In this document: positions 1-15,769 of the stretch, piece after piece | Position numbering within the stretch: the stretch's first letter is position 1 | Layout of the letters: each line of letters begins with the position of its first letter | DNA from: Mycobacterium sp. | GTDB lineage: Bacteria > Actinomycetota > Actinomycetes > Mycobacteriales > Mycobacteriaceae | Reading direction: 5' to 3' | Length of the DNA: 47,914 nt | NCBI GenBank assembly: GCA_003987775.1 | Contig: RXJD01000078.1 | Coordinates: 1 to 47,914 of the forward strand | Notes under the pieces: generated by a model | Seen by the model: the letters and a program-made list of their open reading frames with translations, nothing else | Databases searched by the model: none | What the model was told of the DNA's origin: nothing | Made by a program: the position numbers and the translations under genes

Positions 1-87
1 GATCATCAGAGCGACCCTGCACCCACCAATTGTCCCCAAAACCCCAGCACAACCAGCCCCGCCACGCGGGATTAATTCAGCAGTCTC

Positions 88-202
88 CTAGCGATCGACC
101 CCGCCCATGGCGGCGACCCGCCGCGCCCGACTGCGCCGCGCTAGCGATCGACCCACCCATGGCGGCGACCCGCCGCGCCCGGCTGCGCCGCGCTAGCGAT
201 CG
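88..202. repeat. Tandem repeat (53 + 52 bp units) at the 3' end of ldtB
   Basis: The 10-mer CTAGCGATCG occurs at 88, 141 and 193, giving two nearly identical units of 53 and 52 bp and the start of a third. Each unit holds a short perfect hairpin (GCGGCG-ACC-CGCCGC, first copy 110-124). The stop codon of ldtB lies in the third CTAGCGATCG, so the array starts exactly at the gene end. It may serve as a terminator or be a mycobacterial minisatellite of MIRU type. Bases 1-87 show nothing recognisable. Confidence 0.85.
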
Positions 203-1401
203 CCGGTGTTGGCGTTGCCGGCGCGCCACACATCCCACGGGATGTTCCAGTCGCCGAGGCCGTCCGTCCCGGGCAGGATGCTGCCCACCGTGTTGACGAC
301 CTCCACGACGTCCCCGCGCTTGCTGTGGTCGTAGAACCACACGGCATTGCTGGGGCTCACATTCAGACATCCGTGACTGGTGTTGGAGTGGCCCTGGGCG
401 CCCACCGACCACGGCGCCGAGTGCACGAAGATGCCGCTGTAGGAGATCTGGGTGGCCCAGTCGACGTCGGTGCGATAACCGTTGGGCGAGTTGACCGGTA
501 CGCCGTAGGTCGAGGAGTCCATGATGATGTGCTTGAACCGCGCGCCGACGATGTAGACCCCGTTGTTGGTCGGGGTGCTGTCTTTACCCATCGACGTCGG
601 CATCGTCTTGACGACTTCGCCGTTGATCCGCACCGTGATGATCTTGGTGTTGTCGTCGACCGTGGCGATCATCTCGTCGCCGATGGTGAAGTGCATCTTC
701 ACGTTGTCCTCGCCGAACATTCCCTCACCGAGGTCGACGCCGTACGTGTTGACCGCGACGTCGACGTTGGTACCCGGCTTCCAGTAATGCTCTGGGCGCC
801 AACGCACTTCGCGCCGGTTCAGCCAGTAGAACGCGCCCTCCACCGGAGGGTTGGTGGTGATCTTGATGGCCTTCTCGGCCGCGGCGCGGTCGGCGATGTT
901 CTCGTCGAAGCGAATCGCGACCGGTTGCCCGACGCCCACCACCTCGCCGTCGCTCGGTACCACGTACGGCATCGTCAAGTGCGCCGGCGAGCTGGTCTGG
1001 AAGCTCATCTGGCGAGTCACCGCACCGCCGAGGCCGGTCGCCTTGGCGTTCAGCGAGTAGCGCCGGTTGTAGCCGAGTTGCTCGGTGGTCTGCCAGTGCA
1101 ATCCGTCTGGGCTGAGTTGCCCGGCGATGGCGCGGCCGTTGTCGTTGACCATCGAAACCGACGCGAGCACGCCGTCGGCGACGGTGACCGTCACCGGCGC
1201 GTCCACGGTGACCCCCACAGCACCGTCGGTCACCGAGGAGGTGAGCTTGGGCACCAGCAGATCGGCAAACGGCGTGCCCTTGTTTTCGATGACCTTGGCG
1301 GCGACGGGCGCACTGGGCCCGCTGCTGCAGGCAACACCGAACACAGCAACTAAGACCATGGCGGCAGCCAGCCACGATCGACGTCTGCGCAAAGGCGTCA
1401 T
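193..1401 (-). CDS. ldtB: L,D-transpeptidase LdtB (Ldt-Mt2 / LppS type), lipoprotein
   Basis: Forms 3-3 cross-links in peptidoglycan on the outer face of the membrane and is the main target class of carbapenems in mycobacteria. The 402-residue product starts at an ATG preceded by GGAAGG; a longer reading frame upstream lacks support. Residues 5-24 form a basic and hydrophobic signal ending at a lipobox-like GVAC with Cys25 as lipidation site (glycine at -3 is atypical). Two Ig-like domains (roughly 40-240) precede the YkuD catalytic domain, with the motif SHGCLN around nucleophile Cys345 and the upstream HSAPW. Sequence agreement with M. tuberculosis Rv2518c is very high along the whole length, including the C-terminal GDWNIPWD. 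It is transcribed alone, away from the tRNA gene, and its stop lies inside a tandem repeat. Confidence 0.96.
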
Positions 1402-1609
1402 CAAGTGACCTTCCACATTTTGTTTGCCTATCACGGTCACCGCTGACCCTGGATTGTTTCCAGCATTGTAGTGCCTCAACGGCACTCGCCGTGGCCATGC
1501 GGGGCGATTGGTGCCCGGCGGTTCGGCCGATTCAGCCCCTGGCCGACCTCGGGATTTCACTCTCCGACGGGATGCCTGTTATTGTCGAGAGCCGGTCTCA
1601 GGCCGGCAC

Positions 1610-1685
<76 letters not shown>

Positions 1686-1686
1686 C

Positions 1687-3075
1687 ATGCCAACGTCTCG
1701 ACACCCTTCCGAGCAAACGCGGCCGCAGGACCCGTCGGACGAAACCGACGACCTCGAGGCAGCGTTTCAGCGGGCTCTGCATTCCGGCGACCTTGAACAG
1801 GCGGCGCCCGCGGCGTTCGCCCTGGGACGCCGGCGGGCCGCCGAGGGCGACGCCGATGGCGCTCGGGCGGCCTATCAATGGGCCATCGACTCCCAGCACC
1901 CGCACTGGGGCTCCGCCGCCGCGTTCGCACTCGGCTCTCTGCTGGCCGGGCAGGGCGACGAGGCGGGCGCGACGGCGGCCTACCAACAGGCCATCGAGTC
2001 CGGCCACGCCGAACACGCGCCGATGGCGGCACTGAACCTGGGAAACCTGCTGGCAGAACGCGGTGAGGCGGATGAGGCAGAAGCGGCCTATCGAGTGGCG
2101 ATCGAGTCCGAGCATGAGCAGTCGATTCTGATCGCGCTGCTGCAACTGGGCGGATTGCGGGCCGGTCGCGGCAATGCCGCCGGGGCCGAGGTGGCCTACC
2201 GAATCGCCGCTGCATCCGGAAACCCCGAGGTCATTCCTACTGCCGCCTTCAATTTGGCACTAACCAGAGAAGCACTGGGTGACATCGAGGGCTCCGCGGA
2301 GGCCTACCAGATCGTCATCGCCACCGATCACCCCGAACTGGCACCCCTGGCCGTCTTCAATCTGGCCACCCTGCTGGAAAAGCAGGGTGATCTGGCCGGA
2401 GCGGCAACGGCCTCTCAGGCCGCGGTCGACTCCGGTCACCCTGAGCTGGTGCCCAGGGCTCTGGTCAATCTGGGACAGCTGCGGGAGAGATCCGGTGACT
2501 TCGACCGCGCGCGGGCGTCCTATCGCCTGGCGATGGACAGCGGGGACGCCGAGGCGGCGCCGCGGGCGGCGATCAACATGGCGAGGCTGCAGGAGAAGGA
2601 CGGTGATTTCGCCGACGCCACCGCGTTCTATCAGTCGGCGATCGATTCCGGGCATCCCGAGCACGCACCGGAGGCCGCGAATTCGCTGGGGATGCTGCGG
2701 GCCGGGCTCGGAGACATCGAGGGCGCCACGACCGCGTACCAGTTCGCACTCGACTCGGGCCACCCCGACCACGCGCCCGGAGCCGCACTCAGATTCGGAA
2801 TCCTGTGGGCGGGACGGGGCGAGGTGAAGCGCGCGGCGGCCGCCTTCCAGGAGGCGGCCGACTCCGGGAACACCGAGTCTGGGCCGGCGGCCGAATTCGG
2901 ACTCGGCACATTGTGGGCCGAGAACGGCGACATCCCGGCCGCCCAGGCAGCCTTCCGGCGCGCGATCGAATCTGGCCACCCGGTGTGGGCTCCGAAGGCA
3001 CTCGAACGCTCTCAGAGCACCCCGCCGCAAGCCCGGCGCGGTCTGTTCCGCCGAAAGCCGTCAGCCGGCGACTGA
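1687..3075 (+). CDS. Tetratricopeptide (Sel1/TPR-like) repeat protein
   Basis: The 462-residue protein is built almost wholly from eleven consecutive repeats of exactly 36 residues (about residues 40-435), of the form xAAxxLGxLxAxxGDxxGAxxAYQxAIDSGHPExAP. Such TPR solenoids bind other proteins; no catalytic domain, signal peptide or membrane segment is seen. The C-terminus is basic and rich in Arg and Pro. The ATG lies one base after the CCA of tRNA-Lys and no other in-frame start is found nearby, so translation would be from a leaderless or nearly leaderless mRNA, or from a tRNA-mRNA read-through transcript. The 3' end overlaps the convergent MpaB gene by 15 bp. Partner and function are unknown. 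Confidence 0.85.
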   Translation: MPTSRHPSEQTRPQDPSDETDDLEAAFQRALHSGDLEQAAPAAFALGRRRAAEGDADGARAAYQWAIDSQHPHWGSAAAFALGSLLAGQGDEAGATAAYQQAIESGHAEHAPMAALNLGNLLAERGEADEAEAAYRVAIESEHEQSILIALLQLGGLRAGRGNAAGAEVAYRIAAASGNPEVIPTAAFNLALTREALGDIEGSAEAYQIVIATDHPELAPLAVFNLATLLEKQGDLAGAATASQAAVDSGHPELVPRALVNLGQLRERSGDFDRARASYRLAMDSGDAEAAPRAAINMARLQEKDGDFADATAFYQSAIDSGHPEHAPEAANSLGMLRAGLGDIEGATTAYQFALDSGHPDHAPGAALRFGILWAGRGEVKRAAAAFQEAADSGNTESGPAAEFGLGTLWAENGDIPAAQAAFRRAIESGHPVWAPKALERSQSTPPQARRGLFRRKPSAGD

Positions 3076-3957
3076 GACTTCGGCAGCCTCTGCCGCGGCG
3101 CTGCCCGGAGTCATGATCCAGCGGATGCTCCCGACGGCCACACGACCGGCCATGCGTGTCACCGTCGTCTCCAGCAGCGGGACATAGGGAAGCAACAACG
3201 GCCGGCGTGCCCACCCCGGCAGCATCGCCACCGCGGTGGCGGCCAGCACGCCGTACGCGGGCCTCGCCGGCAATCGCAACGGAGGCGTCAACAGCAGGAA
3301 CCGGGCGGCATCCCGGGCAGCAGCCGTTCCGCGCAGTTCGGGACGGAATTCTTCGATGCGATCGTGCAGTTCTCGCTCGGTCATCGGCGGTGTGGGCACG
3401 CCGAGCGCGCCTGCCACGACGGCCATGTCGGCGACGTAACCGTCTCGGCCGGCCTGGTCGAGCGGGGCGGCACCGTAGAGCTGATGGGCGAGCAGGAAGC
3501 TGTCCACCTCGGCGATGTGAACCCACTCGAGCAGATGCGGGTCGGAGGCCTGATACGGCCGTCCGTCCGGTGCGACGCCGTGCACGTATTTGTGGATGCG
3601 CCGGACGTGGTCGACCGCGGCCTGGGCATCGGCGGCACAGCCGAAAGTGGTCGTGGCCAGGAAGGTGCTGGTGCGTTGCAGCCGTCCCCAGGGATCGCCG
3701 CGATAGTCCGAGTGCTCGGCCACCCCCGCCATGGCCAGCGGGTGCAGGGACTGCAACAGCAGGGCCCGCAATCCGCCGACGAACATCGACGCGTCGGCGT
3801 TGACCCGACGGATGGGGCGGTCCGCGGCGAACCACCGTTCACCCGGTGTGCCGTGGATGCGCTCCCGATTGGCCGGCCCGTCCGGCCCGGCCACCATGCC
3901 GAACAGCTTGCTTCCCAGGTCACGCCGAACAGCGCCGACCGCCGACAAGATAGTCAC
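3061..3957 (-). CDS. MpaB-family oxygenase (DUF2236)
   Basis: The 298-residue protein belongs to the DUF2236 / MpaB / latex-clearing-protein superfamily, putative haem-b oxygenases common in mycobacteria. Visible features are the GxRALLLQSLHPLAMAGV block with its conserved His near residue 75, the following HSDYRGDPWGRL segment, RRIHKYVHG, and a WVHIAEVDSFLLAHQ helix. The GTG start overlaps the stop of the upstream TetR gene in a GTGA quartet, so the two are translationally coupled and the regulator probably controls this oxygenase. Substrate unknown. A much longer reading frame upstream overlaps the TetR gene and is rejected. Confidence 0.88.
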   Translation of the reverse strand: MTILSAVGAVRRDLGSKLFGMVAGPDGPANRERIHGTPGERWFAADRPIRRVNADASMFVGGLRALLLQSLHPLAMAGVAEHSDYRGDPWGRLQRTSTFLATTTFGCAADAQAAVDHVRRIHKYVHGVAPDGRPYQASDPHLLEWVHIAEVDSFLLAHQLYGAAPLDQAGRDGYVADMAVVAGALGVPTPPMTERELHDRIEEFRPELRGTAAARDAARFLLLTPPLRLPARPAYGVLAATAVAMLPGWARRPLLLPYVPLLETTVTRMAGRVAVGSIRWIMTPGSAAAEAAEVSVAG

Positions 3958-4559
3958 GTGTCCACCGTACGAGTCGGAACACGCTGCGCGTCCGCGCTTC
4001 TCAAGACCATGTCGACAGCGGCCTCGATAATCTCGTCGTCCGGGAGGGTGCCGTACATCAGCGACGGACATGCGACGACACCGGTCAGCATGGAGACGGC
4101 CGCGTCCAGTGCCGCACCGGTGAACACCTCTCCCAGCATCGCGTACATCTGATGCTGGCCGTCGGTATTGACCTTGTCTCTGAGTGCCCTGATCTGCTCC
4201 TGGGACGCCCACTGCGCCATGCTGGCGAGCACCCGGTCGAGTCGCATGTCGATGATTCCGGAACGGAAGACCTTGAGTTCCCCGATGAGGTCCGTGCGCA
4301 GGTCGCCGGTCCGTTTGTGGTGCGGCATCTCCCCGAGTGATTCGATCGCCAGGGTGATCAGGTCCACGCGTGCCGGCCAGTGCGTGTAGACCGTGGTTTT
4401 GGAGTAGCCGGCCAGCTCAGCCACCCGCGCATGCGTAATCGCTTCGGATCCTTCGTCATTGAGGATCTTGAGGGTGGCCCGCGCAACGTCGCCACGAGTC
4501 CGTGCCACCCGTGCGTCTTCGCCGCCGTCGGACGGCCGGTTAGCCGGTGCCGGAGTCAT
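3954..4559 (-). CDS. TetR/AcrR-family transcriptional regulator
   Basis: The 201-residue protein has an N-terminal TetR helix-turn-helix (about residues 17-65; HARVAELAGYSKTTVYTHW) and a helical ligand domain. It is first in a two-gene unit with the MpaB-type oxygenase (GTGA overlap) and divergent from the six-gene mycosporine-type operon starting at 4806. The shared 246-bp intergenic region contains inverted repeats, so it is a candidate regulator of both. The inducing ligand cannot be told from sequence. Confidence 0.92.
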   Translation of the reverse strand: MTPAPANRPSDGGEDARVARTRGDVARATLKILNDEGSEAITHARVAELAGYSKTTVYTHWPARVDLITLAIESLGEMPHHKRTGDLRTDLIGELKVFRSGIIDMRLDRVLASMAQWASQEQIRALRDKVNTDGQHQMYAMLGEVFTGAALDAAVSMLTGVVACPSLMYGTLPDDEIIEAAVDMVLRSADAQRVPTRTVDT

Positions 4560-4715
4560 CTCTGCCGCGCCTCTGCTTTCGCAACGGCCCCCTCTTCGCC
4601 TTCGCCGTCCGCTGGCTCGTTCGGGCCAGAAGTCTACTGAACAACACGTCGGCCCTGCGTAACGCGACGGCGAGTCCGCGCGCTACGCGGGGAAGGACAT
4701 TTGCTGGACAGAGTA

Positions 4716-4765
4716 TCCACTATCCGCAGCTCTAATCATTACTGTACGTTTAGATCAGTAGTGGA
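4716..4765. promoter_or_regulatory. Candidate operator in the divergent TetR / mys promoter region
   Basis: A perfect inverted repeat, TCCACTA (4716-4722) and TAGTGGA (4759-4765), flanks a second one, TACTG-N11-CAGTA (4740-4760). The block is AT-rich for this genome and lies 40-90 bp before the start of the operon at 4806, between it and the divergent TetR gene. TetR binding is inferred from position only. Confidence 0.45.
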
Positions 4766-4805
4766 CGGGGCAACCACCATCAGTCCACTCGATCAAAGGA
4801 AACTC

Positions 4806-5480
4806 ATGACAGCCGTCCTTTTCGGATCCATCAGCACTCTTGCCGACACATCGGAACTTCAGCGCAGGGCATTCAACGAAGCGTTTGCCTCTTCCGGGCT
4901 CGACTGGGAGTGGTCGCGTGACGAGTACGTCGGGATGTTGGGATCCAACGGCGGCGCTCAACGGATCCGGGACTATGCGCAGTCGCGCGGGCAGGACGTC
5001 GACGCCGCGGCGGTGCATGCACTGAAGTCGGAGATTTTCCAGCGCCTGCTCGGCGACTCTGAGGTGACCCCGCGCGATGGCGTCACCGCCACGATCGCCG
5101 AGGCCAAGAAGAACAACCACAAGGTCGGCTTCGTCACCACCACCTCGCCGGCCAACATCGACGCGCTGCTGTCGGCACTCGAGCCGGAGATCAGCGCCGA
5201 GACCTTCGACCTCATCGTCAACAAGGAATCCGTGGCGGCCGCCAAACCCGATGCGGCGGCGTACGAATTCGCTTTGGGCAAGCTCGGTGAGCGCGCCGAC
5301 AGCGTCGTCGCGATCGAGGACAACCTGGGCGGTGTCGCGGCAGCGGTGCAGGCAGGTATCCCGTGCATCGCGTTTCTGAACGAGAACACGAGCCGAGCCG
5401 AGCAGGCCGAATACACGGCTGCGATCCAGATCGTCGACTCCCTGGACCCCGAAACGGTTCTCGGCCTCGCCACGTCCTGA
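4806..5480 (+). CDS. HAD-like protein lacking the catalytic aspartates
   Basis: The 224-residue product starts at an ATG preceded by AAAGGAAA. Its fold matches HAD phosphatases of the beta-phosphoglucomutase/phosphoglycolate type: cap helices at about 20-85, motif II Thr in VGFVTTTSP, motif III Lys in AAAKPDAAAY and motif IV VAIEDNLGG. Motif I, normally DxDGTL, reads FGSISTL here: both the nucleophile and the general acid Asp are replaced (Gly and Ile). The usual phosphoryl transfer is therefore not expected; a structural, binding or altered-chemistry role is more likely. It is the first gene of the operon, 42 bp before the sugar phosphate cyclase gene. Relation to the cyclase substrate, a sugar phosphate, is suggestive but unproven. 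Confidence 0.8.
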   Translation: MTAVLFGSISTLADTSELQRRAFNEAFASSGLDWEWSRDEYVGMLGSNGGAQRIRDYAQSRGQDVDAAAVHALKSEIFQRLLGDSEVTPRDGVTATIAEAKKNNHKVGFVTTTSPANIDALLSALEPEISAETFDLIVNKESVAAAKPDAAAYEFALGKLGERADSVVAIEDNLGGVAAAVQAGIPCIAFLNENTSRAEQAEYTAAIQIVDSLDPETVLGLATS

Positions 5481-5522
5481 CCCCATCCCCCATCAAGACC
5501 CCCCGCCCCGAGGAGTAACGCC

Positions 5523-6749
5523 TTGAGCAACCTTCAAGCCCGAGTGACGGCCGGCGACAGAGCCTTTCACGTCGAAGGCTACGAACGAATCGAGTACGAC
5601 CTGCTTTACGTCGACCACGTGTTCGCGCCGGACAACACCGAACTCGCGGACAGTTACCGGGAGTACGGACGCGCGCTGGCGGTGGTCGACGACACGGTCT
5701 ACCAGATCTACGGCGATGCGATGCGGTCCTACTTCAGCCATCACGACATCGAGCTCACCGTGATCCCGGTGCAGATCCGCGAAACGGCCAAGTCGCTGGA
5801 GACCTACGAGCAGATCGTCACCAGGTTCGACGCCTTCGGTCTGGTGCGCACCGAACCGGTGCTGGTCGTCGGCGGCGGGCTGACCACCGACGTCGCCGGA
5901 TTCGCTTGCGCCAGTTACCGGCGCAACACGCCCTACATTCGGATTCCGACCACGCTGATCGGCCTGATCGATGCGAGTGTCTCCATCAAGGTGGCGGTCA
6001 ATCACGGCAAGCACAAGAACCGGCTGGGCGCCTACCACGCATCCGAGAAAGTGCTGCTGGACTTCTCGTTCCTGAAGACGCTGCCCGAAGATCAGGTGCG
6101 TAACGGCATGGCCGAACTGATCAAGATCGCGGTGGTTGGCAACGCCGAGATCTTCGAGCTGTTGGAAGTGCACGGCGCCGATCTGCTGCGAACCCGGTTC
6201 GGCCACCTCGACGGCACCGCGGAGCTACGTGCCGTGGGAGACCGGCTCACCTACCTGGCGATCGCAACGATGCTCGACCTGGAAGCGCCCAATCTGCACG
6301 AGATCGACTTGGACCGGGTTATTGCCTTCGGGCACACGTGGAGTCCGACTTTGGAACTCACGCCACCCACCCCGTTCTTCCACGGCCACGCCATCAACAT
6401 CGACATGGCGTTGTCGACGACGCTTGCCGAGCAGCGCGGACACCTCTCGGTCAGCGATCGTGACCGCATACTCAACGTGATGAGTGCGCTGGGCCTGGCC
6501 CTGGACAGCGAGCATCTGACCTCGGAGCTGCTCGAGCGGGCCACAGTGGCGATTCTCAAGACACGCGACGGCCGACTGCGGGCGGCCGTACCCGACCCGA
6601 TCGGCCGGTGCCACTTCCTCAACGACGTCACTACCAGCGAGCTGGCCGATACGTTGTTGCTGCACAAGAAGATCTGCCTCGAGTTTCCCCGCGCAGGAGA
6701 CGGCGTCGACGTCTTTGCGGCACCTGCGCCGGGAGCGATGCGCACGTGA
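5523..6749 (+). CDS. mysA: Sugar phosphate cyclase, DDGS/EEVS type (MysA-like)
   Basis: Cyclises sedoheptulose 7-phosphate, most likely to desmethyl-4-deoxygadusol, the first step of mycosporine biosynthesis. The 408-residue protein has the NAD-binding [13 protein letters not shown], the [20 protein letters not shown] block, the NRLGAYHAS segment and [11 protein letters not shown]. Metal ligands in family position are Glu198, His271 (FGHTWSP) and His287 (FFHGHAIN). Sequence agreement with cyanobacterial DDGS/MysA is strong throughout and extends to the C-terminal DGVDVF region; ordinary 3-dehydroquinate synthases are shorter and differ in these blocks. DDGS versus 2-epi-5-epi-valiolone synthase cannot be settled without comparing active-site residues. 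TTG start with GAGGAG upstream; GTGA overlap with the next gene. Confidence 0.92.
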
Positions 6750-8095
6750 CGGCCACGTTGGACGAAGCCACCGGTGTTCGGGTACACCGGATCTCGGATG
6801 CCGACGTGGGCCGCACGCTGGCCACCCTTGTCGTCCTGTTCGGCACGCTGCCGTTCGACCTCGCGCTGGTGCTGGTCGCGTTACTCGCCGGACGGCGGCC
6901 GTCGCGCGGGCGCCTGCCCGCCCAGGCTCGCCGAACCATCCTGCTCAACGGCGGGAAGATGACGAAGGCGCTGCAGCTGGCGCGGTCGTTTCACCTGGCC
7001 GGGCACCGGGTGATCCTCGTCGAATCCGAGAAATACCGGTGGACCGGGCATCGGTTCTCCCGCGCGGTGGACGCGTTCTACTGCGTGCCGGAGCCGACCG
7101 AACCGGGTTACGCGCTGGCGCTGCTCGACATCGTCCGGTACGAGAACGTCGACGTCTACGTGCCGGTGTCCAGCCCTGCCGGAAGTGTGCCCGATGCGGT
7201 GGCGCGCGAGTTGCTCGACGGCGCCTGTGACGTCGTCCATTCGGACGCCAAGACGGTGCAGTTGCTCGACGACAAGGCCGAGTTCGCCTCGACCGCAGCA
7301 TCATTGAGCCTGCGCGTGCCGGACTCCCACCGCATCACCGACGCCCGGCAGGTGGTCGACTTCGCATTCCCGGCGGGGCGCAGCTACATCCTCAAACGCA
7401 TCGCGTACGACCCCGTCGGACGGATGAACCTCACCCGGTTGTCCGGAGCGACGCCCGACCACAATGCCGCCTACGCGCGATCGCTGCCGATCTCCGAGGA
7501 CGACCCCTGGATCCTGCAGGAATTCATCGAAGGGCGCGAGTACTGCACGCACGGCACCGCCCGCAGTGGGCGCCTGCAGGTCTACGGCTGCTGCGAATCC
7601 TCCTCCGCCCAGGTCAACTACCGCAATGTCGACAAGCCGGAAATCCGGCGGTGGGTCGAGACGTTCGTGAAGAACCTCAACCTGAGCGGGCAGGTGTCCT
7701 TCGATTTCATCGAGGCCCGGGACGGGCAGGTGTACGCCATCGAGTGCAATCCGCGGACCCACTCGGCAATCACCATGTTCCACGACCATCCGGATCTCGC
7801 GGCCGCCTATCTCGATGACAACCATCCGCTTATCACCCCGAACGACGGCGCTCGGCCCACTTACTGGATCTACCACGAACTTTGGCGCCTGCTCCGGCAC
7901 CGCGGGCGGATCAGCAGGCTCGTGACCATGCTGCGGGGTAAGGACGCGATCTTCGCCGGATGGGATCCGATGCCCTACCTGATGGTGCATCATCTGCAGA
8001 TCCCGGCGCTGCTGTGGGCCAATCTCCGAGCCGGAAAGGGTTGGAGCCGTATCGACTTCAACATCGGAAAGCTCGTCGAGAACGGCGGGGACTGA
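6746..8095 (+). CDS. mysC: ATP-grasp mycosporine synthase (MysC-like)
   Basis: In cyanobacteria MysC joins glycine to 4-deoxygadusol to give mycosporine-glycine. This 449-residue protein has an N-terminal hydrophobic segment (about residues 22-50), then [22 protein letters not shown], an ATP-grasp core ([48 protein letters not shown]) and the typical C-terminus [13 protein letters not shown]. These blocks match cyanobacterial MysC closely. The GTG start overlaps the stop of the cyclase gene in a GTGA quartet, and the mysD-like gene follows directly (TGAATG), so translation is coupled. In known clusters an O-methyltransferase gene sits between mysA and mysC; here there is none. Confidence 0.93.
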
Positions 8096-9154
8096 ATGAC
8101 CGCGCCGCCCCGCGTATCGGTCCTGCATCTCGTGGGGTCCGCGGTCGACGAGTTTCATGCCGAATTGTCACGGCTCTACGCGCGCGCCTGCCTGGCCGCG
8201 CTGCCGGGCGAGGACTATGACGTGCTGCTGGCATACGTGTCGCCCGACGGGTCCTGGCGGTTTCCCGCGGACCTCAGCGCCGAAGCGCTGAGTTCGGCCA
8301 GGCCCTTACCAGTTTCGAAGGCGATCGCGCATCTGCGTTCGCTGCGGGTGGATGTCGTGGTGCCGCAGATGTTCTGCCTGCCCGGGATGACCTCCTACCG
8401 GCGCCTGCTGAGCGCACTGCGACTCCCCTTTATCGGCAACCCGCCCGAGGTGATGGAGATCGCGGCGGACAAGGCGGCAAGCCGGGCGATCGTCTCCCAG
8501 GCAGGCGTCGCGGTGCCCGCCGGTGAGGTGGTGCGGGCCGGTGACCGCTCGACCCTGCCGCTGCCAGTGGTCGTCAAGCCGGTCTGCGCGGACAACTCGG
8601 TGGGCGTGTCGCTGGTGCGCACACCGGCCGAACTCCCGTCAGCGATCGATCGGGCGCTCGCCCACGGAACCTCGGCTTTGGTCGAGACTTACGTCGAGCT
8701 GGGCCGAGAAGTCCGGTGCGGCATCGTCGTTCGTGACGGAGAGCTGGTGTGCCTGCCGCTGGAAGAGTACGCGGTGGACACCACCGCCAAGCCCATCCGC
8801 GACCACGAGGACAAATTGCGCCGCTCGCAGGGTGGTGAGCTGTACCTCGTCGCGAAGGACGCGTGTCATGCGTGGATCGTTCCCGTCGACGACCCGATCA
8901 CCGACGTGGTCTGGGAAGCCGCGCGGCGCTGTCATCTGGCACTGGGATGCCGCCACTACAGCCTGTTCGACTTCCGCATCGACCCCGACGGACGGGTGTG
9001 GTTCCTCGAGGCCGGCCCGTACTGCTCGTTCGCCCCGACCAGCGTCATCGCCGTGATGGCGGCAGCGGCGGGCATGGACGTGGCGGAGTTGTTCGCCGAC
9101 CAACTCCGCGAACTCGGTCTCGAAGGAACGCCATGCTTGAGTGCGCAACGCTGA
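8096..9154 (+). CDS. mysD: D-Ala-D-Ala-ligase-like amino acid ligase (MysD-like)
   Basis: MysD adds a second amino acid (Ser, Thr or similar) to mycosporine-glycine, forming the imine chromophore of shinorine or porphyra-334. The 352-residue protein opens with VSVLHLVGSAVDEF, followed by VSPDGSWRFP, VVPQMFCLPGMTSYR, the ATP-grasp lysine block VVVKPVCADNSVGVSLV, GREVRCGIVV and CLPLEEYAVD, and ends with CRHYSLFDFRIDPDGRVWFLEA. All match cyanobacterial MysD. The start codon follows the mysC stop directly, and its last 22 bp overlap the next gene. Amino acid specificity cannot be read from sequence. Confidence 0.93.
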   Translation: MTAPPRVSVLHLVGSAVDEFHAELSRLYARACLAALPGEDYDVLLAYVSPDGSWRFPADLSAEALSSARPLPVSKAIAHLRSLRVDVVVPQMFCLPGMTSYRRLLSALRLPFIGNPPEVMEIAADKAASRAIVSQAGVAVPAGEVVRAGDRSTLPLPVVVKPVCADNSVGVSLVRTPAELPSAIDRALAHGTSALVETYVELGREVRCGIVVRDGELVCLPLEEYAVDTTAKPIRDHEDKLRRSQGGELYLVAKDACHAWIVPVDDPITDVVWEAARRCHLALGCRHYSLFDFRIDPDGRVWFLEAGPYCSFAPTSVIAVMAAAAGMDVAELFADQLRELGLEGTPCLSAQR

Positions 9155-9933
9155 AACCGCTGGGCGCCTTGGTGACCGACCTAAAGGTCGGCGCGCTCAG
9201 TGAGAGCGAAGTGCACCAGTTGCGGACCGTGCTTGCCCGGCGCGGTGTCATCGTTCTGCCGGGTCAGGCCGTCGACGACACCGCGTTTCTGCAATTCCTG
9301 CGCAGCTTCGGCGATCCGGTATTCACGGTGGGCGAGACTCCCGTACCGGACTTTCCGGACCTCAACGTGGTGAGCAACGTCGGCCGCGACCGCCCGCCCC
9401 GCTCCACGTTTCACACCGATACCAGTTACGTGCGAAATCCCCCCGCCTATACCGCTTTACGAGCGGTCAGGGTGCCCAGCCGCGGCGGGCACACGCTGTT
9501 CACCGACCAGTACGCGGCGTACGAGACGCTGCCCGAGCGGGTCCGCGAGTGCCTTTACGGGCGCACCGTAACCCACATCATGACGGGGCTGGAGTTGGAC
9601 GAAGACCAGGAGACGTCGGCGGAGCATCCGATCTTCCGGCCGCATCCGCTGTCCGGGCGGACGGCGCTGTACCTGTCGGCGCCGCAGCGCTGCGCCGCGG
9701 TCAGCGGGATGACGCCGGAGGTGGCGGCCGAGACCGTCGCGTACCTGTTTCGGCATTCCACGCGAGCGGACAACACCTACCGTCACGAATGGTCGGAAGG
9801 CGACGTCGTGATGTGGGACAACCGCTGCGTGCTGCACTGCGCCGACCACAGCGGGGTGGTCGGCGACCGCGTCATGCACCGCGGTATGGTCGCCGATCAC
9901 CGGTCAGGTTTTCCAGTTCCACCGAAAGAGTGA
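9133..9933 (+). CDS. TauD/TfdA-family Fe(II)/2-oxoglutarate oxygenase, mycosporine tailoring
   Basis: The 266-residue protein carries the facial triad His94-x-Asp96 (FHTDTSY) and His235 (CVLHCADH), with Arg250 (MHRGMV) placed to bind 2-oxoglutarate, as in taurine and alkylsulfonate dioxygenases. The ATG is preceded by GAAGGAA and overlaps the end of the mysD-like gene by 22 bp, so it is part of the same operon. In some cyanobacteria another 2-oxoglutarate enzyme, MysH, converts shinorine/porphyra-334 to palythines; this protein may play a similar part but looks like the TauD branch, so its reaction (hydroxylation, N-dealkylation or decarboxylation) is open. Confidence 0.88.
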   Translation: MLECATLKPLGALVTDLKVGALSESEVHQLRTVLARRGVIVLPGQAVDDTAFLQFLRSFGDPVFTVGETPVPDFPDLNVVSNVGRDRPPRSTFHTDTSYVRNPPAYTALRAVRVPSRGGHTLFTDQYAAYETLPERVRECLYGRTVTHIMTGLELDEDQETSAEHPIFRPHPLSGRTALYLSAPQRCAAVSGMTPEVAAETVAYLFRHSTRADNTYRHEWSEGDVVMWDNRCVLHCADHSGVVGDRVMHRGMVADHRSGFPVPPKE

Positions 9934-9939
9934 GCTGAT

Positions 9940-11181
9940 ATGGACGAAACGGAAGTTCTGGTCATCGGCGCGGGGCTGGCCGGCCTTCGCTGCGCCGACG
10001 TGCTGGCGGCCGCCGGTCGCGACGTGCTGATCTGGGAAGCCAAGAGCGCCGTGGGCGGCCGTATCCGTACCGACAACGTCGACGGGTTCCGGTGCGACCG
10101 CGGCTTTCAGGTGCTCAATCCCGCCTACCCGGAGCTGCGTCGCGCGGTCGATCTGGCAAAGCTGAAACTGCAACCGTTCGGCGCGGGTGTCGTGGTCCGC
10201 CGCGAAGAGGGTTCGGCGGTGTGGGTGCATCCGCTGCGCGCCCCCGGGCGGGTGCCGGCCATGCTGGCCTCCGGCGGCATCTCGCCGCGCGATGCGCTGG
10301 CAGTGGCGCGCTGGGCCGCCCCGGCGCTACGGCCCAAAACGCTGAAGACCCACACCGATCGCGACGTCAGCCTCAGCGAGGCGCTGGATCGGGCGGGCGT
10401 CCGTGGCGAGGTGCGCAGGGTGATCGACCGCTTTCTGGCGGGGGTCCTCCTGGACACCTGCGGGGAGAGCTCGAACGCGTTCGCGCTACTTCTGGCGCGC
10501 ATGTTCCTGCTCGGGGTGCCTGCGCTGCCGGCCGGCGGCATGGAGGCCCTCCCCCAACAGCTTGCCGCCCGCGTCGGTGAGCGAATAGCGTTCAACCACA
10601 GGGCGTTCCGAATCGACCCGGATGTCAAGGAGTACCAGGTCCACGCGGATGGGGCGCGCGTCCGGGCGCGACACGTGGTGGTGGCCACCGAAGCCGTAGC
10701 GGCCGCGTGGCTGACGTCGGAGACGGCACCGCCCATGCACGGGGTGGTGACCGATTGGTGGGCCACTGGGGTGCCGGTCGCGGGACCACCGATGCTCCGG
10801 GTGGACGGCCGCCGGCACCCGCCGGGTCCGGTGCTGAATACGGCGGTGATCAGTGCTGCCGCCCGCACCTACGCCCCGCCTGGCCAACACCTCATCGCGG
10901 CGTCAGCGGTGGTGGAGCGGGACGGGACGGTGCCCCCGGAAAATGTGATGCGCGAACACGCGGCCGACATCCTCAACAGCGATCAACGTCAGTGGAGGCC
11001 GTTGGTTCGCCACGTCATCCCCAATGCGCTCCCGGCGCAGACCCCGCCACTCTCGGTTCGCCGCCCGATCCGCACGCAGGCCGGTGTCTGGCTGTGCGGT
11101 GACCATCGCGACACCGCCTCCATCCAGGGTGCGCTGGTCAGTGGGCGCCGTACCGCGGAGGCTATTCTCGCGGCGCGATGA
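9940..11181 (+). CDS. FAD-dependent amine-oxidase-like oxidoreductase
   Basis: The 413-residue flavoprotein has an N-terminal Rossmann motif (VIGAGLAGLRCADVL, about residues 7-21), the GGRIRTD segment after the second strand, and a C-terminal FAD site (WLCGDHRDTASIQGALVSGRRTAEAI). It resembles the flavin amine oxidase / protoporphyrinogen oxidase / phytoene desaturase superfamily. It lies 6 bp after the TauD-type gene and ends the operon, overlapping the convergent TetR gene by 20 bp. Co-transcription with mycosporine genes suggests oxidation of the amino acid side chain or ring. Relatives also occur in unrelated actinobacterial settings, so pathway membership is inferred. Confidence 0.85.
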   Translation: MDETEVLVIGAGLAGLRCADVLAAAGRDVLIWEAKSAVGGRIRTDNVDGFRCDRGFQVLNPAYPELRRAVDLAKLKLQPFGAGVVVRREEGSAVWVHPLRAPGRVPAMLASGGISPRDALAVARWAAPALRPKTLKTHTDRDVSLSEALDRAGVRGEVRRVIDRFLAGVLLDTCGESSNAFALLLARMFLLGVPALPAGGMEALPQQLAARVGERIAFNHRAFRIDPDVKEYQVHADGARVRARHVVVATEAVAAAWLTSETAPPMHGVVTDWWATGVPVAGPPMLRVDGRRHPPGPVLNTAVISAAARTYAPPGQHLIAASAVVERDGTVPPENVMREHAADILNSDQRQWRPLVRHVIPNALPAQTPPLSVRRPIRTQAGVWLCGDHRDTASIQGALVSGRRTAEAILAAR

Positions 11182-12646: not shown

Positions 12647-13447
12647 TCAGGCCGGGCGCGACCCTGAGAGTGCCTGCCGCGCAACGAGATCCAGCGCATA
12701 ACCGATAACGCCGATCACGACGATTACCGCGACCACCTGCCCGTACGCCAACTGATCGCGGGCGTTGAGGATCTGGTAGCCCAGTCCTGAACGCACACCG
12801 AGCATCTCGGCCGGCACCAGCACGACCCACGCGATACCCAGTGCCACCCGCAGGCCGGTTTGCAGGTGACCGCGGATCGCGGGCAGCACCACGACGGTCA
12901 GCTGCTCGAGCCGGGTGGCGCCGAACGACCGGGCGACCTGTAGGTAGCCCGGATCGATGGCGTGCACCCCGGCGGCGGTGTTGATCAGGATCGGCCACAC
13001 CGCTGCCGCCGCGATCAGGAAGATGACCGGTTCGTCGCCGATTCCGAACAATGCCACCGAGATCGGCGCCCAGGACAGGGGCGAGATCATCCGCAGGAAT
13101 TGGACGACGGGACGCGTGGCGCGATCGGCGGTGTCGTTGAGGCCGATCAGCAATCCGGCGGGCACGCCGATCACGGCGCCGACCAGCAACCCGACCAGCA
13201 GCCGCCACAGACTCACCCCGGTGTCGGGTAGCAGCACGCCCCGGTTGTACAGCTCGACCAGCGACTTCACCACTTTCACCGGCGTCGTCTCGCGAAGCAG
13301 GGACTGCGAGGGAGCCAGAACCGCGGTCGCCAGCCACCACCCCGCCACCGCGACAGCGATCGCCAGTGCCGGCGGCCACCAGCGCCGGATGGGCCGCGCC
13401 GACGACGGCGGTTGGGGTAGCGAGGTGGTCGAGGTGGACAGAGTCAT
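12647..13447 (-). CDS. ABC transporter permease (SsuC/TauC/NrtB family)
   Basis: The 266-residue membrane protein has about six transmembrane segments and the EAA-loop of binding-protein-dependent importers (residues about 170-200; GYLQVARSFGATRLEQLTVVVLPAIRGHL). It would form the channel for uptake of a nitrate-, taurine- or sulfonate-like solute. It is the last gene of a three-gene operon; its ATG overlaps the stop of the binding-protein gene (ATGA). The partner ATPase gene is frameshifted, so transport may be lost or may use an ATPase encoded elsewhere. Confidence 0.9.
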   Translation of the reverse strand: MTLSTSTTSLPQPPSSARPIRRWWPPALAIAVAVAGWWLATAVLAPSQSLLRETTPVKVVKSLVELYNRGVLLPDTGVSLWRLLVGLLVGAVIGVPAGLLIGLNDTADRATRPVVQFLRMISPLSWAPISVALFGIGDEPVIFLIAAAAVWPILINTAAGVHAIDPGYLQVARSFGATRLEQLTVVVLPAIRGHLQTGLRVALGIAWVVLVPAEMLGVRSGLGYQILNARDQLAYGQVVAVIVVIGVIGYALDLVARQALSGSRPA

Positions 13448-14604
13448 CGCGGCTGCACCTGTTCGGTTCGGGTCAGATCGTCAGAGATTCCGAAGGCTGC
13501 TGGTCCGCCGTGCGCGGCCAGTGCCTGGCGGACGAAGGTGTCGTCGACCAGCTCGGAATGCACCGACGCGGGGTCGATCCGGTCCAGGAAGGAGCGGTCG
13601 CCGTCGACGACGGTGTCGTGCATGGCCTCGACGAGTCGGCGGGTGAAGCTCGGAAAGGGAAACGGCTGATACCCGAGCCGTTGCGGCTGCCAGTCCGGGT
13701 GCAGGAAGCGGTAGTCCCCGGAGCGGTAGGTCAGCGCGGTCTTGATGGCAGGTTGAGGTTGCGGTAGGTAGGTCCCCGCCGACAGGGCAGTCGCCGCCGC
13801 GGGCCGGTCGGAGTTGATGCGCTGCTGTGCCGCCACGATCGAATTGACCAGTGACGCAGCCGCATCCGGTCGGTGCTCGATCAGGTCGTCATGGGCCAGC
13901 ACCACGCAGCAGGCGTGGTCCCGCCACACGTCACCGAGAAACGTGTGGATGCGGCCGATCTTGCGCACCTGCGCCATGGCGTTGAACGGATCGGCCACCA
14001 CGTAGCCACTGATGGAACGGTTTGCCAGGGCGGGCACCATATCCGAGGGGCTCATGACGATCAGCTCGACGGTGCGGGCGCTGCGCGAGGCGCTGCGGCG
14101 GACTACCGGCACCAGGTCGTGAGCCCGCAGCAGTTGCTGGAGGATGATGTTGTGAATCGACCACCAGAACGGGATGGCCACCTGAGTTCCGGCGAGTTGC
14201 CCGAAATCGGTGATCCCGGGCGCCACGGTGAAAGCCGAGCCATTGGTGTGATTCCAACTCAGCACCCGCACCGGGCTGCGCAGCAGGAAGCGCAACTGGA
14301 TTGCGGTGGGCATCAGCATGTGCACGGCGTCGACCTGGCGGGTGACGAACGCTTCGGCGAGCGACGCCCAGCTGCGGAACAGCACCGGTTTGGCCGAGCT
14401 CACCACGCCCGGTTGATAAAGGCCTGCCGCGTGCGCGATCAACAGCGGCGCCGCATCAGTGATCGGCAGATAGCCGATTCGCAGTTGTCCGCTGGTGTTG
14501 GTGCGGTCCACGCTGGCCGCATGGGCGAGGTCTGCGATGCCGGCCAGCCCGCCCGCCGCGGCCGCGCCGATCAACAGGCGCCGCCGCGTGATGAGTCCCG
14601 TCAC
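13444..14604 (-). CDS. ABC transporter substrate-binding protein (NrtA/SsuA-like), Tat signal
   Basis: The 386-residue product starts at a GTG overlapping the ATPase stop (GTGA). A twin-arginine signal (ITRRRLLIG followed by a hydrophobic stretch ending at DLAHA) predicts Tat export. The mature part has RIGYLPITDAAPLLIAHAAGLY near its N-terminus, typical of NMT1/THI5-like periplasmic binding proteins for nitrate, taurine, alkanesulfonates or pyrimidine precursors. An uninterrupted reading frame extends upstream into the ATPase gene because of the frameshift there; that fusion is not a real protein. Substrate not determinable. Confidence 0.88.
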   Translation of the reverse strand: MTGLITRRRLLIGAAAAGGLAGIADLAHAASVDRTNTSGQLRIGYLPITDAAPLLIAHAAGLYQPGVVSSAKPVLFRSWASLAEAFVTRQVDAVHMLMPTAIQLRFLLRSPVRVLSWNHTNGSAFTVAPGITDFGQLAGTQVAIPFWWSIHNIILQQLLRAHDLVPVVRRSASRSARTVELIVMSPSDMVPALANRSISGYVVADPFNAMAQVRKIGRIHTFLGDVWRDHACCVVLAHDDLIEHRPDAAASLVNSIVAAQQRINSDRPAAATALSAGTYLPQPQPAIKTALTYRSGDYRFLHPDWQPQRLGYQPFPFPSFTRRLVEAMHDTVVDGDRSFLDRIDPASVHSELVDDTFVRQALAAHGGPAAFGISDDLTRTEQVQPR

Positions 14605-15342
14605 TGCTCGACCAGGCGGTAATGGTCCAGGATCTCCTGCCGCAGTTGCTCGTCGCCAGTGCGGACTGCGGCGGTGAGGGCCGGCTGCCACTCCCGGCGG
14701 ATCCTGCCGTCGGGCCCGAGCAGCACCACGCGGCCCGCGAGCAGTAGAGCCTCGTCCACATCGTGGGTGACCAGCACCACGGTGATCCCCAACTCGGCCG
14801 CCAGATTGGCGAGCCAGGATCGCAGGTCCCCCCTGATCGCCGGATCCAGCGCGCTGAACGGCTCGTCGAGGAGCAGCAACCTCGGCCTGGTCGCGACGGC
14901 CCGGATGATCGCCACCCGCTGCGCCTGGGCCGCCGGACAGCTGATCGGGATAGCGGTCGGCCACCCATTCCAGGTCGAAGCGGCGCAGCAGTTCCTCGGC
15001 ATATTCACGCTGGAACGTCGCTTTGTTCGCGGCGAATCGCCCAGCGATGGCCACGTTCTCACGAACGGTCAGCCACGGCATCAGCAGGGCCTGCTGGAAC
15101 ACCACGCCGGTGTGCGGACGTGCCACACCGTTGGCGCTGGACCATTCGACGGTGCCCGTGGTCAGCGTCTCCAGGCCGGCGATGACGCGCAGCAGTGTGG
15201 ACTTGCCGCTCCCGCTGCGCCCGAGAATCGCCAGGAAGTCGCCGTCGTCGATGGTCAGGTCGATGTCGTTGAGGACGTGGCTGTGGGCATCGAAGCGCTT
15301 GTGGCCACCGAGTATTCGTACGGTGGCTGCTCCCACCTTCAC
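14601..15342 (-). pseudogene. ABC transporter ATP-binding protein with a frameshift in the signature motif
   Basis: GTG start with AAGGAA upstream. Frame 1 encodes Walker A GRSGSGKST, Q-loop VVFQQALLMPWL and DQLSGG; the reading frame then shifts, and AQRVAIIRA, Walker B LLLLDEPFSALD and H-loop VLVTHDVDEAL continue in another frame to 14601. One extra G in the GGG run at 14927-14929 (CCC in the coding strand) explains this: with one base fewer the sequence reads LSGGQAQRVA and a normal protein of about 246 residues results. The signature motif is broken, so the protein as given would be non-functional. Either a true recent mutation or a sequencing or assembly error in a homopolymer. Confidence 0.9.
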
Positions 15343-15769
15343 ATTCCTTTCCAGAGACCGATACGACCCACATTTCCCTGGCGTGCCGCGCCGTGTCACG
15401 TCCGTCGATGCCGCACAGGTGAGCGCGCGCCGCGCGCCGCTGTGGCGGTACCGTCGAGCGAGCGAGAACCGCTTACCCACGAATAGCCTTGTTAATGAGC
15501 ATGTTTCACTGCCTTCCCGTGGCTCGGCGCGCGCGGCGCGATGCCGGCGGCCGCCGGCCCGGTGGAGATGGGATCCCGCTGATCGCAACCGCGCGACCGG
15601 ATCGGCAGATTCCCCTCCCGCTCAGTCGACGCAGGCCTGTCGCCCCAACCGCGGCGCGGGTAATTTCTTCTGACAGCCCGACCTTCGCTCGCGGGCGTCC
15701 TGGCACACTGCCGGTCACGGCGGCGCGTCGTTGGCACCCGTGGGCGCTCGCCAGTTCGAAGGAGCAGCA
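15343..15769. other. Intergenic region between divergent ABC operon and DUF3556 gene
   Basis: A 427-bp GC-rich stretch without a convincing gene. It holds a perfect 16-bp palindrome GCCGGCGGCCGCCGGC (15543-15558) and presumably the two divergent promoters. I looked for a sulfur-related riboswitch before the ABC operon and could not recognise one. GAAGGAG at 15758-15764 is the ribosome site of the next gene. Confidence 0.6.

Follow-up and report, generated by a model that had tools for sequence, protein, structure and literature searches.

Within Mycobacterium, three separate lineages have each cleanly lost the gene mysB from an operon that otherwise carries the genes for DDGS (MysA), MysC and MysD. 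One such operon lies in the window (the whole 47,914-nucleotide stretch analysed, from the Mycobacterium gordonae complex). Our favoured reading, held with moderate confidence, is that it is an actinobacterial mycosporine-type operon minus mysB, whose MysC takes the unmethylated ring and which would yield a 2-O-desmethyl product resembling a mycosporine-like amino acid (MAA). This desmethyl product would probably be a new relative of the sunscreens. The features considered are listed below.

3954..4559, minus strand: TetR-type regulator (TetR_N), divergent from the operon
4739..4763, plus strand: imperfect palindrome upstream of the HAD gene
4806..5480, plus strand: HAD-fold protein, CbbY-like
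5523..6749, plus strand: DDGS (MysA), sedoheptulose 7-phosphate cyclase
6746..8095, plus strand: MysC-like ATP-grasp ligase
8096..9154, plus strand: MysD-like ATP-grasp protein of the D-Ala-D-Ala ligase fold
9133..9933, plus strand: TauD/TfdA Fe(II)/2-oxoglutarate dioxygenase (TauD Pfam)
9940..11181, plus strand: FAD-dependent oxidoreductase (amine oxidase/PPO/phytoene-desaturase superfamily)

The six same-strand genes at 4806..11181 were present as the earlier note had described, with no MysB among them; its statement that most of them overlap went too far, as two junctions overlap and one abuts. Going from HAD to FAD oxidase, successive genes are spaced by 42, -4, 0, -22 and +6 bp, the fourth value being counted from the TauD ATG at 9133 (it is -13 from 9142, searches having used 9142-9933). 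The -4 bp junction, where the MysC start overlaps the mysA stop, is the site occupied by mysB in relatives.

The cyclase scored 545 bits against 5tpr (labelled 3-dehydroquinate synthase in the database), which we take to be the Anabaena DDGS, and 279 bits, a far lower score, against 4p53 (labelled cyclase), presumably the EEVS ValA, so that it was not placed in the EEVS clade. It also contains a stretch closely resembling the DDGS-diagnostic stretch quoted in PMC10057719. By match scores and motif, the cyclase is assigned to the DDGS kind and not to EEVS. In comparison with the cyanobacterial mysABCD cluster (shinorine) on a plasmid of Nostoc sp. HK-01, identities were 62% for DDGS (query residues 1-398/408), 55% for MysC (36-449/449) and 53% for MysD (5-349/352). 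The earlier family assignments of these three proteins, and the likeness of MysC and MysD to cyanobacterial enzymes, were thus upheld by scores, motif and identities. The Nostoc plasmid differs in that an O-methyltransferase is encoded between DDGS and MysC, and none of the window's HAD, TauD and FAD proteins had a match in the 15 kb compared. MysC is 53-72% identical to the MysC of 84 MysB-bearing loci and has an AlphaFold model of pLDDT 89; a sequence search found no relative of it in the PDB. MysD carries the L-A omega-loop pattern, from which a preference for serine is predicted under a rule that PMC11983340 derives from cyanobacterial enzymes. By sequence, the locus therefore has the DDGS, MysC and MysD of an MAA cluster and lacks its MysB.

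HAD and TauD are standard partners of this pathway, being found in 91/94 and 86/94 distinct DDGS-MysC loci respectively. The nearest solved relative of HAD by sequence was CbbY (PDB 4uat/4uar, 130 bits), presumably a xylulose-1,5-bisphosphate phosphatase; the aligned CbbY chain reads FDVNGT where the window protein reads FGSIST. The nucleophile position is Gly in all 93 aligned loci in place of the Asp of DxDGT, and HAD is therefore considered a putative pseudo-phosphatase. TauD has an HxD...H iron site, with H94 and D96 in 85/85 aligned rows plus a further conserved His. Both proteins have been published as usual parts of actinobacterial MAA clusters (PMC11888242), and TauD is described as an MAA-cluster enzyme in PMC10510106 as well. 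The TauD-family dioxygenase MysI of Nostoc sp. UHCC 0926 (PMC10510106), like MysH, belongs to an MAA pathway and is proposed to form palythine-type products; the window TauD is likened to MysI by family and description, its mycobacterial function being putative. Of the two oxidases that the earlier note regarded as added to the pathway, the FAD oxidase is indeed an addition, and TauD is not.

A TetR gene 62-74% identical to that of the window lies divergent from HAD in seven of eight mycobacterial operons of other lineages (L132 being the exception), and the divergent TetR is probably a dedicated regulator of the operon. The imperfect palindrome at 4739..4763 was the sole match in the window's genome at three or fewer mismatches and is likely a TetR operator/promoter region. 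Examined by eye in 18/93 upstream regions, a similar palindrome-like stretch was seen upstream of two of the MysB-less clades described below (A and B) and of several MysB-bearing mycobacteria.

The lack of MysB is genuine and unusual. Among 94 distinct loci, mysB lies between DDGS and MysC in 85, with a gap of at least 736 bp, and is absent from nine, with a gap of -4 to 28 bp. A decayed mysB in this gap was rejected, the gap being too short and no remnant being present in the four operons checked. A MysB hidden elsewhere in the genome was likewise rejected by profile search, the genome-wide search that the earlier note had proposed: the best MysB-profile score was 63-99 bits in all eight MysB-less genomes searched (G305, G534, G610 and G659 being single-contig assemblies) and 385-447 bits in all 17 MysB-bearing controls. 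In a separate set of ten genomes, the profile scored 434-455 bits in four MysB-bearing genomes, 89 bits in G000 and G267, and 69-101 bits in four genomes without DDGS; the search of the window's genome found no MysB, its best score being 89 bits against the 434-455 of MysB-bearing genomes. The absence of MysB that the earlier note had reported for the window thus extends to the rest of the genome. In a phylum-wide search, DDGS was found in 5/396 genomes: that of the window plus four more, and each of those four has an adjoining MysB.

A non-orthologous replacement, in which a methyltransferase from a different family, with its gene elsewhere in the genome, would lead to ordinary shinorine or palythine, is considered unlikely. 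Weak O-methyltransferase matches occur in all 25 genomes tested and, as set out below, a knockout in Phaffia says that methylation is needed, but the MysB-less genomes hold no closer O-methyltransferase than the others (63-99 bits at best), further copies in MysB-bearing genomes scoring up to 114 bits. Moreover, a Pfam scan of two operon flanks found no methyltransferase among nine flanking ORFs of L132 (clade C) or ten of L120 (clade B), these ORFs having been chosen by GC3, by which some may be missed; and three separate replacement events would be required. The methyltransferase elsewhere that the earlier note had allowed for is thus disfavoured in its MysB-like form (eight genomes, two flanks), and persists as a distant enzyme of another family at the low likelihood just given.

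The nine MysB-less loci form three clades (A, B and C) nested among MysB-bearing mycobacteria, and the tree forces three changes. A single clade of all MysB-less loci was rejected (AU p 1.2e-5), as was a clade uniting A and B (p 0.010). The five core genes (HAD, DDGS, MysC, MysD and TauD) are intact in 9/9 MysB-less loci, and in clades A and B, the two with several members and those to which this analysis was limited (clade C is a single genome, without TetR gene and operator stretch), their dN/dS is 0.05-0.27, similar to that of MysB-bearing pairs. The core enzymes are therefore under purifying selection in these two clades. That the operon is decaying after the loss of mysB and makes nothing is highly implausible: one genome, G404, does lack the five-gene cassette that its kin carry at the same place, but against this stand the intact core genes and a dN/dS range that holds between divergent species.

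Changes in MysC may reflect adaptation to the unmethylated ring, the signal of parallel change being weak. Position F243 is altered in all three MysB-less lineages and is the only such column, V272A and F288A/S occur in clades A and B, and T230P in clades B and C. When clade triples were drawn at random, the three-lineage count was matched in 1/60 draws and the two-lineage count in 7/60 (10/60 at a stricter cut). The same four positions also vary in some MysB-bearing loci, F288S being already present in L104 and L105, MysB-bearing kin of clade B. A strong operon-wide convergent adaptation was rejected, as the excess was confined to MysC (MysA was matched in 24/60 draws and MysD in 12/60).

Under the favoured reading of an operon that operates on the unmethylated ring, DDGS would form 2-desmethyl-4-deoxygadusol, to which MysC, having come to accept this ring, would couple an amino acid (canonically glycine); MysD would attach a second one, probably serine, and TauD may trim the product palythine-style. 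The resulting 2-O-desmethyl MAA-like amino-reductone would have a free enol OH, which would give it redox activity in addition to UV absorption. By the title of a 2015 paper by Pope, the O-methyltransferase is reportedly essential in Anabaena. Deletion of the OMT in the yeast Phaffia abolishes mycosporines (PMC10057719). Given these two cases, the unmethylated ring may not be a substrate for a canonical MysC. Alternatively, the pathway could have been diverted to a product unlike an MAA (e.g. a redox cofactor, a metallophore or an intermediate), MysC and MysD joining other amino acids; we judge this improbable. It would suit a pathway under selection without its canonical methylation step, and a free 2-OH would give a redox-active, chelating scaffold, yet the L-A specificity pattern persists in MysD, clades A and B retain the regulator and operator, and TauD and HAD are nearly unchanged (0-4 and 0-2 changes per locus, respectively, at columns conserved in MysB-bearing loci).

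The FAD oxidase belongs to the operon in all five gordonae-complex loci, and in that complex only among the loci read; it lies outside the operon in the other four MysB-less loci. It is probably co-transcribed with the operon in the M. gordonae complex, starting 6 bp after TauD in the window. A structure search placed it in the amine oxidase/PPO/phytoene desaturase superfamily, a level that does not specify a reaction. That oxidation of the desmethyl intermediate by this enzyme makes up for the missing MysB, and so made the loss of mysB possible, is quite improbable. Besides its place in the gordonae-complex operons, the gene was found in 8/8 MysB-less versus 10/17 MysB-bearing genomes (Fisher p 0.057), and it is associated with DDGS across 396 genomes of the genus (both genes in 27, DDGS only in 14, FAD only in 27, neither in 328; raw counts that ignore kinship, from a sample including incomplete genomes). 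Nevertheless, in clades B and C it is not linked to the operon, 27 genomes carry the gene but lack DDGS, and G404 keeps it intact at the same locus (dN/dS 0.16-0.19) with the five other genes gone. The idea that the FAD oxidase accounts for the missing methyl group was rejected on these grounds, which also weaken the earlier proposal that it oxidises the product to a new compound. As G404 kept the gene after losing the other five, the FAD oxidase is probably dispensable for the pathway. Outside the operon, no neighbour was common to most FAD loci; an acyltransferase like that of the window lies beside the gene in 2/23 loci outside the gordonae complex.

The actinobacterial MAA clusters described with GATOR-GC in PMC11888242 also comprise HAD, DDGS, MysC, MysD and TauD, mostly in the same order, but have mysB, unlike the window operon; the window proteins share 47-84% identity with their counterparts in the MysB-bearing loci that we compared. 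That paper cites, as unpublished, an operon of Rhodococcus fascians D188 that yields shinorine, palythine and palythine-serine. In the open-licence PMC literature, we found no paper on MysB-less clusters and none joining mycosporine with gordonae; genes for "mycosporine synthesis" are listed for one Mycolicibacterium strain in a genome paper (PMC6930893).

O-methylation by MysB or OMT has been treated as obligatory for mycosporines, in the Phaffia work (PMC10057719), reportedly in Anabaena by the title of the 2015 Pope paper, and in the large cluster survey of PMC11888242, which used an O-methyltransferase as required query; clusters without MysB could therefore not appear there, and surveys that demand a methyltransferase are blind to them. 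Three independent losses of mysB with the pathway kept suggest that the obligatory-methylation rule may have natural exceptions. More tentatively, and a little short of an even likelihood in our view, mycobacteria may have repeatedly turned a sunscreen pathway towards 2-O-desmethyl amino-reductones (with ascorbate-like redox and perhaps metal-binding properties) by deletion of mysB and adaptation of MysC. Closely related pairs with and without MysB could be used to probe the purpose of the methyl group, its control by MysC and the cellular role of an unmethylated MAA.

The window constitutes contig C15 in a genome of 7.29 Mb. Among named relatives, Mycobacterium gordonae CTRI 14-8773 stands nearest (locus L178; 92% cyclase identity, six genes and flanks as in the window). 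As still closer records may have been absent from the comparison, the window was placed within the M. gordonae complex rather than assigned to a species. The genes considered are the following:

3954-4559, divergent to the operon: TetR regulator
4806-11181, all on the + strand: HAD-fold protein, sugar phosphate cyclase (MysA), two ATP-grasp ligases (MysC, MysD), TauD-family dioxygenase and FAD oxidoreductase (FAD)

Further downstream (13444-15588), the frame of an ABC transporter ATPase appears to shift mid-gene and to continue into a substrate-binding protein, possibly a frameshift or sequencing error.

By phmmer, the window cyclase scored 545 bits against 5tpr and 279 bits against 4p53, which we take to be the Anabaena DDGS and the EEVS ValA, respectively. 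It also contains a close match (30 protein letters, not shown) to a stretch given as DDGS-diagnostic in PMC10057719, and on these two grounds was taken as a DDGS. Cyclase matches (E-value of 1e-80 or better) occurred in 51 of 301 sampled family genomes, five of them at only 40-43% identity and presumably representing a different type of cyclase. In the genus, 42 of 396 genomes had such a match, 41 with at least 76% identity and one with 42%. The loci read were 20 from the family, 36 further ones from the genus's 41, 65 of 66 named loci (omitting L243, 29% identical) and the Nostoc HK-01 plasmid cluster; family matches are thus covered where their locus was fetched or returned among the named loci. 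Once duplicates had been removed, MysA and MysC lay together on the same strand in 94 loci, with HAD in 91, MysD in 92, TauD in 86 and FAD in 5. HAD and TauD are therefore ordinary parts of the operon, and both were already reported from actinobacterial MAA clusters in a preprint (PMC11888242); a TauD-type MysI of Nostoc is described in PMC10510106. The proposal of the earlier note that two oxidases had been added thus holds for FAD and not for TauD.

MysA and MysC were separated by at least 736 bp, with MysB (O-methyltransferase) between them, in 85 of the 94 loci, and by -4 to 28 bp, without MysB, in the other nine:

Loci without MysB
Clade A (M. gordonae complex): the window, L033, L102, and the near-copies L103 and L178
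Clade B: L120, L123 and L129 (also named MAG Actino1, L211)
Clade C: L132

A search profile built from 11 MysBs gave, on 10 genomes, 434-455 bits in four MysB-bearing genomes, 89 in G000 and G267, and 69-101 in four without DDGS. The absence of MysB from the window, as first noted from the sequence, was borne out, the genome-wide homologue search then suggested also yielding only those 89 bits at best (G000). Across a second set of 25 genomes (that of L178 not included), the profile found no MysB-level protein in eight MysB-less genomes (best 63-99 bits, vs 385-447 in 17 MysB-bearing ones). Incompleteness is not the cause, because G305, G534, G610 and G659 are single-contig assemblies. Pfam scans of flanking ORFs (9 at L132, 10 at L120) detected no methyltransferase. 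Beside the clade C operon, a minus-strand ORF (L132:12446-13903) has a weak CPSase_L_D2 (ATP-grasp) match of 24 bits and is possibly a third ligase. L130, L131, L134, L135, L136 and L137 (also L218, L220 and L221), all of one MysB-bearing mycobacterial clade that is sister to clade C, have a further O-methyltransferase gene (39-40% to MysB) downstream of TauD and on the opposite strand.

In trees of 91 loci (FastTree) and of 54 of those (quick IQ-TREE), the MysB-less loci fell in three places, and starred branches force three changes. A single clade of all nine was rejected (p-AU 1.2e-5), as was holding clades A and B together (p 0.010, in a test chosen after the tree was seen). The direction of change is loss, since the MysB-less loci nest among MysB-bearing ones and MysB is also present in Rhodococcus, Williamsia, Pseudonocardia and Nostoc clusters.

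Eight pairs drawn from within clades A and B gave dN/dS of 0.05-0.27 for the five core genes, inside the range of ten MysB-bearing pairs (0.03-0.28, except for 0.50 for HAD in one pair involving L113, whose HAD looks odd), which places these genes under purifying selection in both clades; clade C, a single member, lies outside this comparison. L113 (G433:C37) has two separate HAD matches ahead of the cyclase (80% and 57% to the window's), representing either two genes or one with a frame change. Conserved-column changes were about as frequent in MysB-less proteins as in others, being somewhat high for clade B MysC (5-8, vs a 90th percentile of 6) and reaching 3-5 for MysD of clades B and C (90th percentile 3). 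The imperfect palindrome upstream of HAD, a likely TetR operator, is unique in the window's genome and, by eye, retained in clades A and B, not in C.

All three clades differ at MysC F243 (Y, L, Y); V272 and F288 are altered in clades A and B, and T230 is replaced by P in clades B and C. When triples of MysB-bearing clades were drawn at random, they reached the two-clade count in 7/60 cases at an 80% cut and 10/60 at 90%, and the three-clade count in 1/60 at either; the other four genes had no excess of parallel change over such triples. F288S also occurs in L104 and L105, both with MysB. Adaptation of MysC to MysB loss is thus suggested only. In the MysC model, positions 230 and 288 lie in two less confident loops (block pLDDT 77 and 73, respectively). 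MysC has a long hydrophobic N-terminal helix (window 6806-6889, residues 21-48); its patterning is seen again in the consensus of the alignment, and the protein is possibly membrane-associated.

The nearest solved relative of the HAD protein by sequence is CbbY. The nucleophile of this family is an Asp, and its position is held by Gly in 93/93 aligned rows (the window and 92 other loci; motif mostly FGSIST); the HAD protein is therefore a pseudo-enzyme. Though conserved, it cannot, judging by this motif, be a normal phosphatase, and a scaffold or regulatory role is a guess. In its description of the HAD protein of actinobacterial MAA operons, one survey names it only HAD (PMC11888242).

FAD starts 6 bp after TauD in the window, lies in the operon in all five clade A loci and has a dN/dS of 0.11-0.19. 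Orthologs (58% identity or more, near full length; a partial 63% match in G383 excluded) were found in 54/396 genus genomes. By hand count, 27 genomes had both FAD and DDGS, 27 FAD only, 14 DDGS only and 328 neither (Fisher p 5e-17, uncorrected for kinship). In a gordonae-complex relative (L245, G404:C16:22000-40000), the window's flanks are present, HAD-mysA-mysC-mysD-tauD is missing and the TetR gene and FAD are 117 bp apart. Two short matches remain there, namely an operator-like stretch and the bases immediately preceding the start of FAD. In G404, DDGS was not found by the genus search that detected it in 42 other genomes, nor MysC by a search run without its own positive control. Deletion of a five-gene cassette appears likelier than its insertion in kin, because regulator and operator also accompany MAA operons without FAD. 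Retention of FAD without the other five genes argues, therefore, for a role outside the pathway.

As to the product, the DDGS would yield desmethyl-4-deoxygadusol, to which MysC would attach glycine, its canonical substrate. The window MysD loop has an L-A pattern (numbered on MysD of Nostoc HK-01, in which the F-S pair agrees with the published positions), which PMC11983340 ties to shinorine by a rule made on cyanobacterial enzymes. The inferred product, from DDGS through MysD, would be a desmethyl compound of shinorine or palythine type; the lack of mycosporines in Phaffia OMT deletion mutants, described in PMC10057719, counts against an unmethylated product. The operon itself is a real and recurrent variant of the known pathway.
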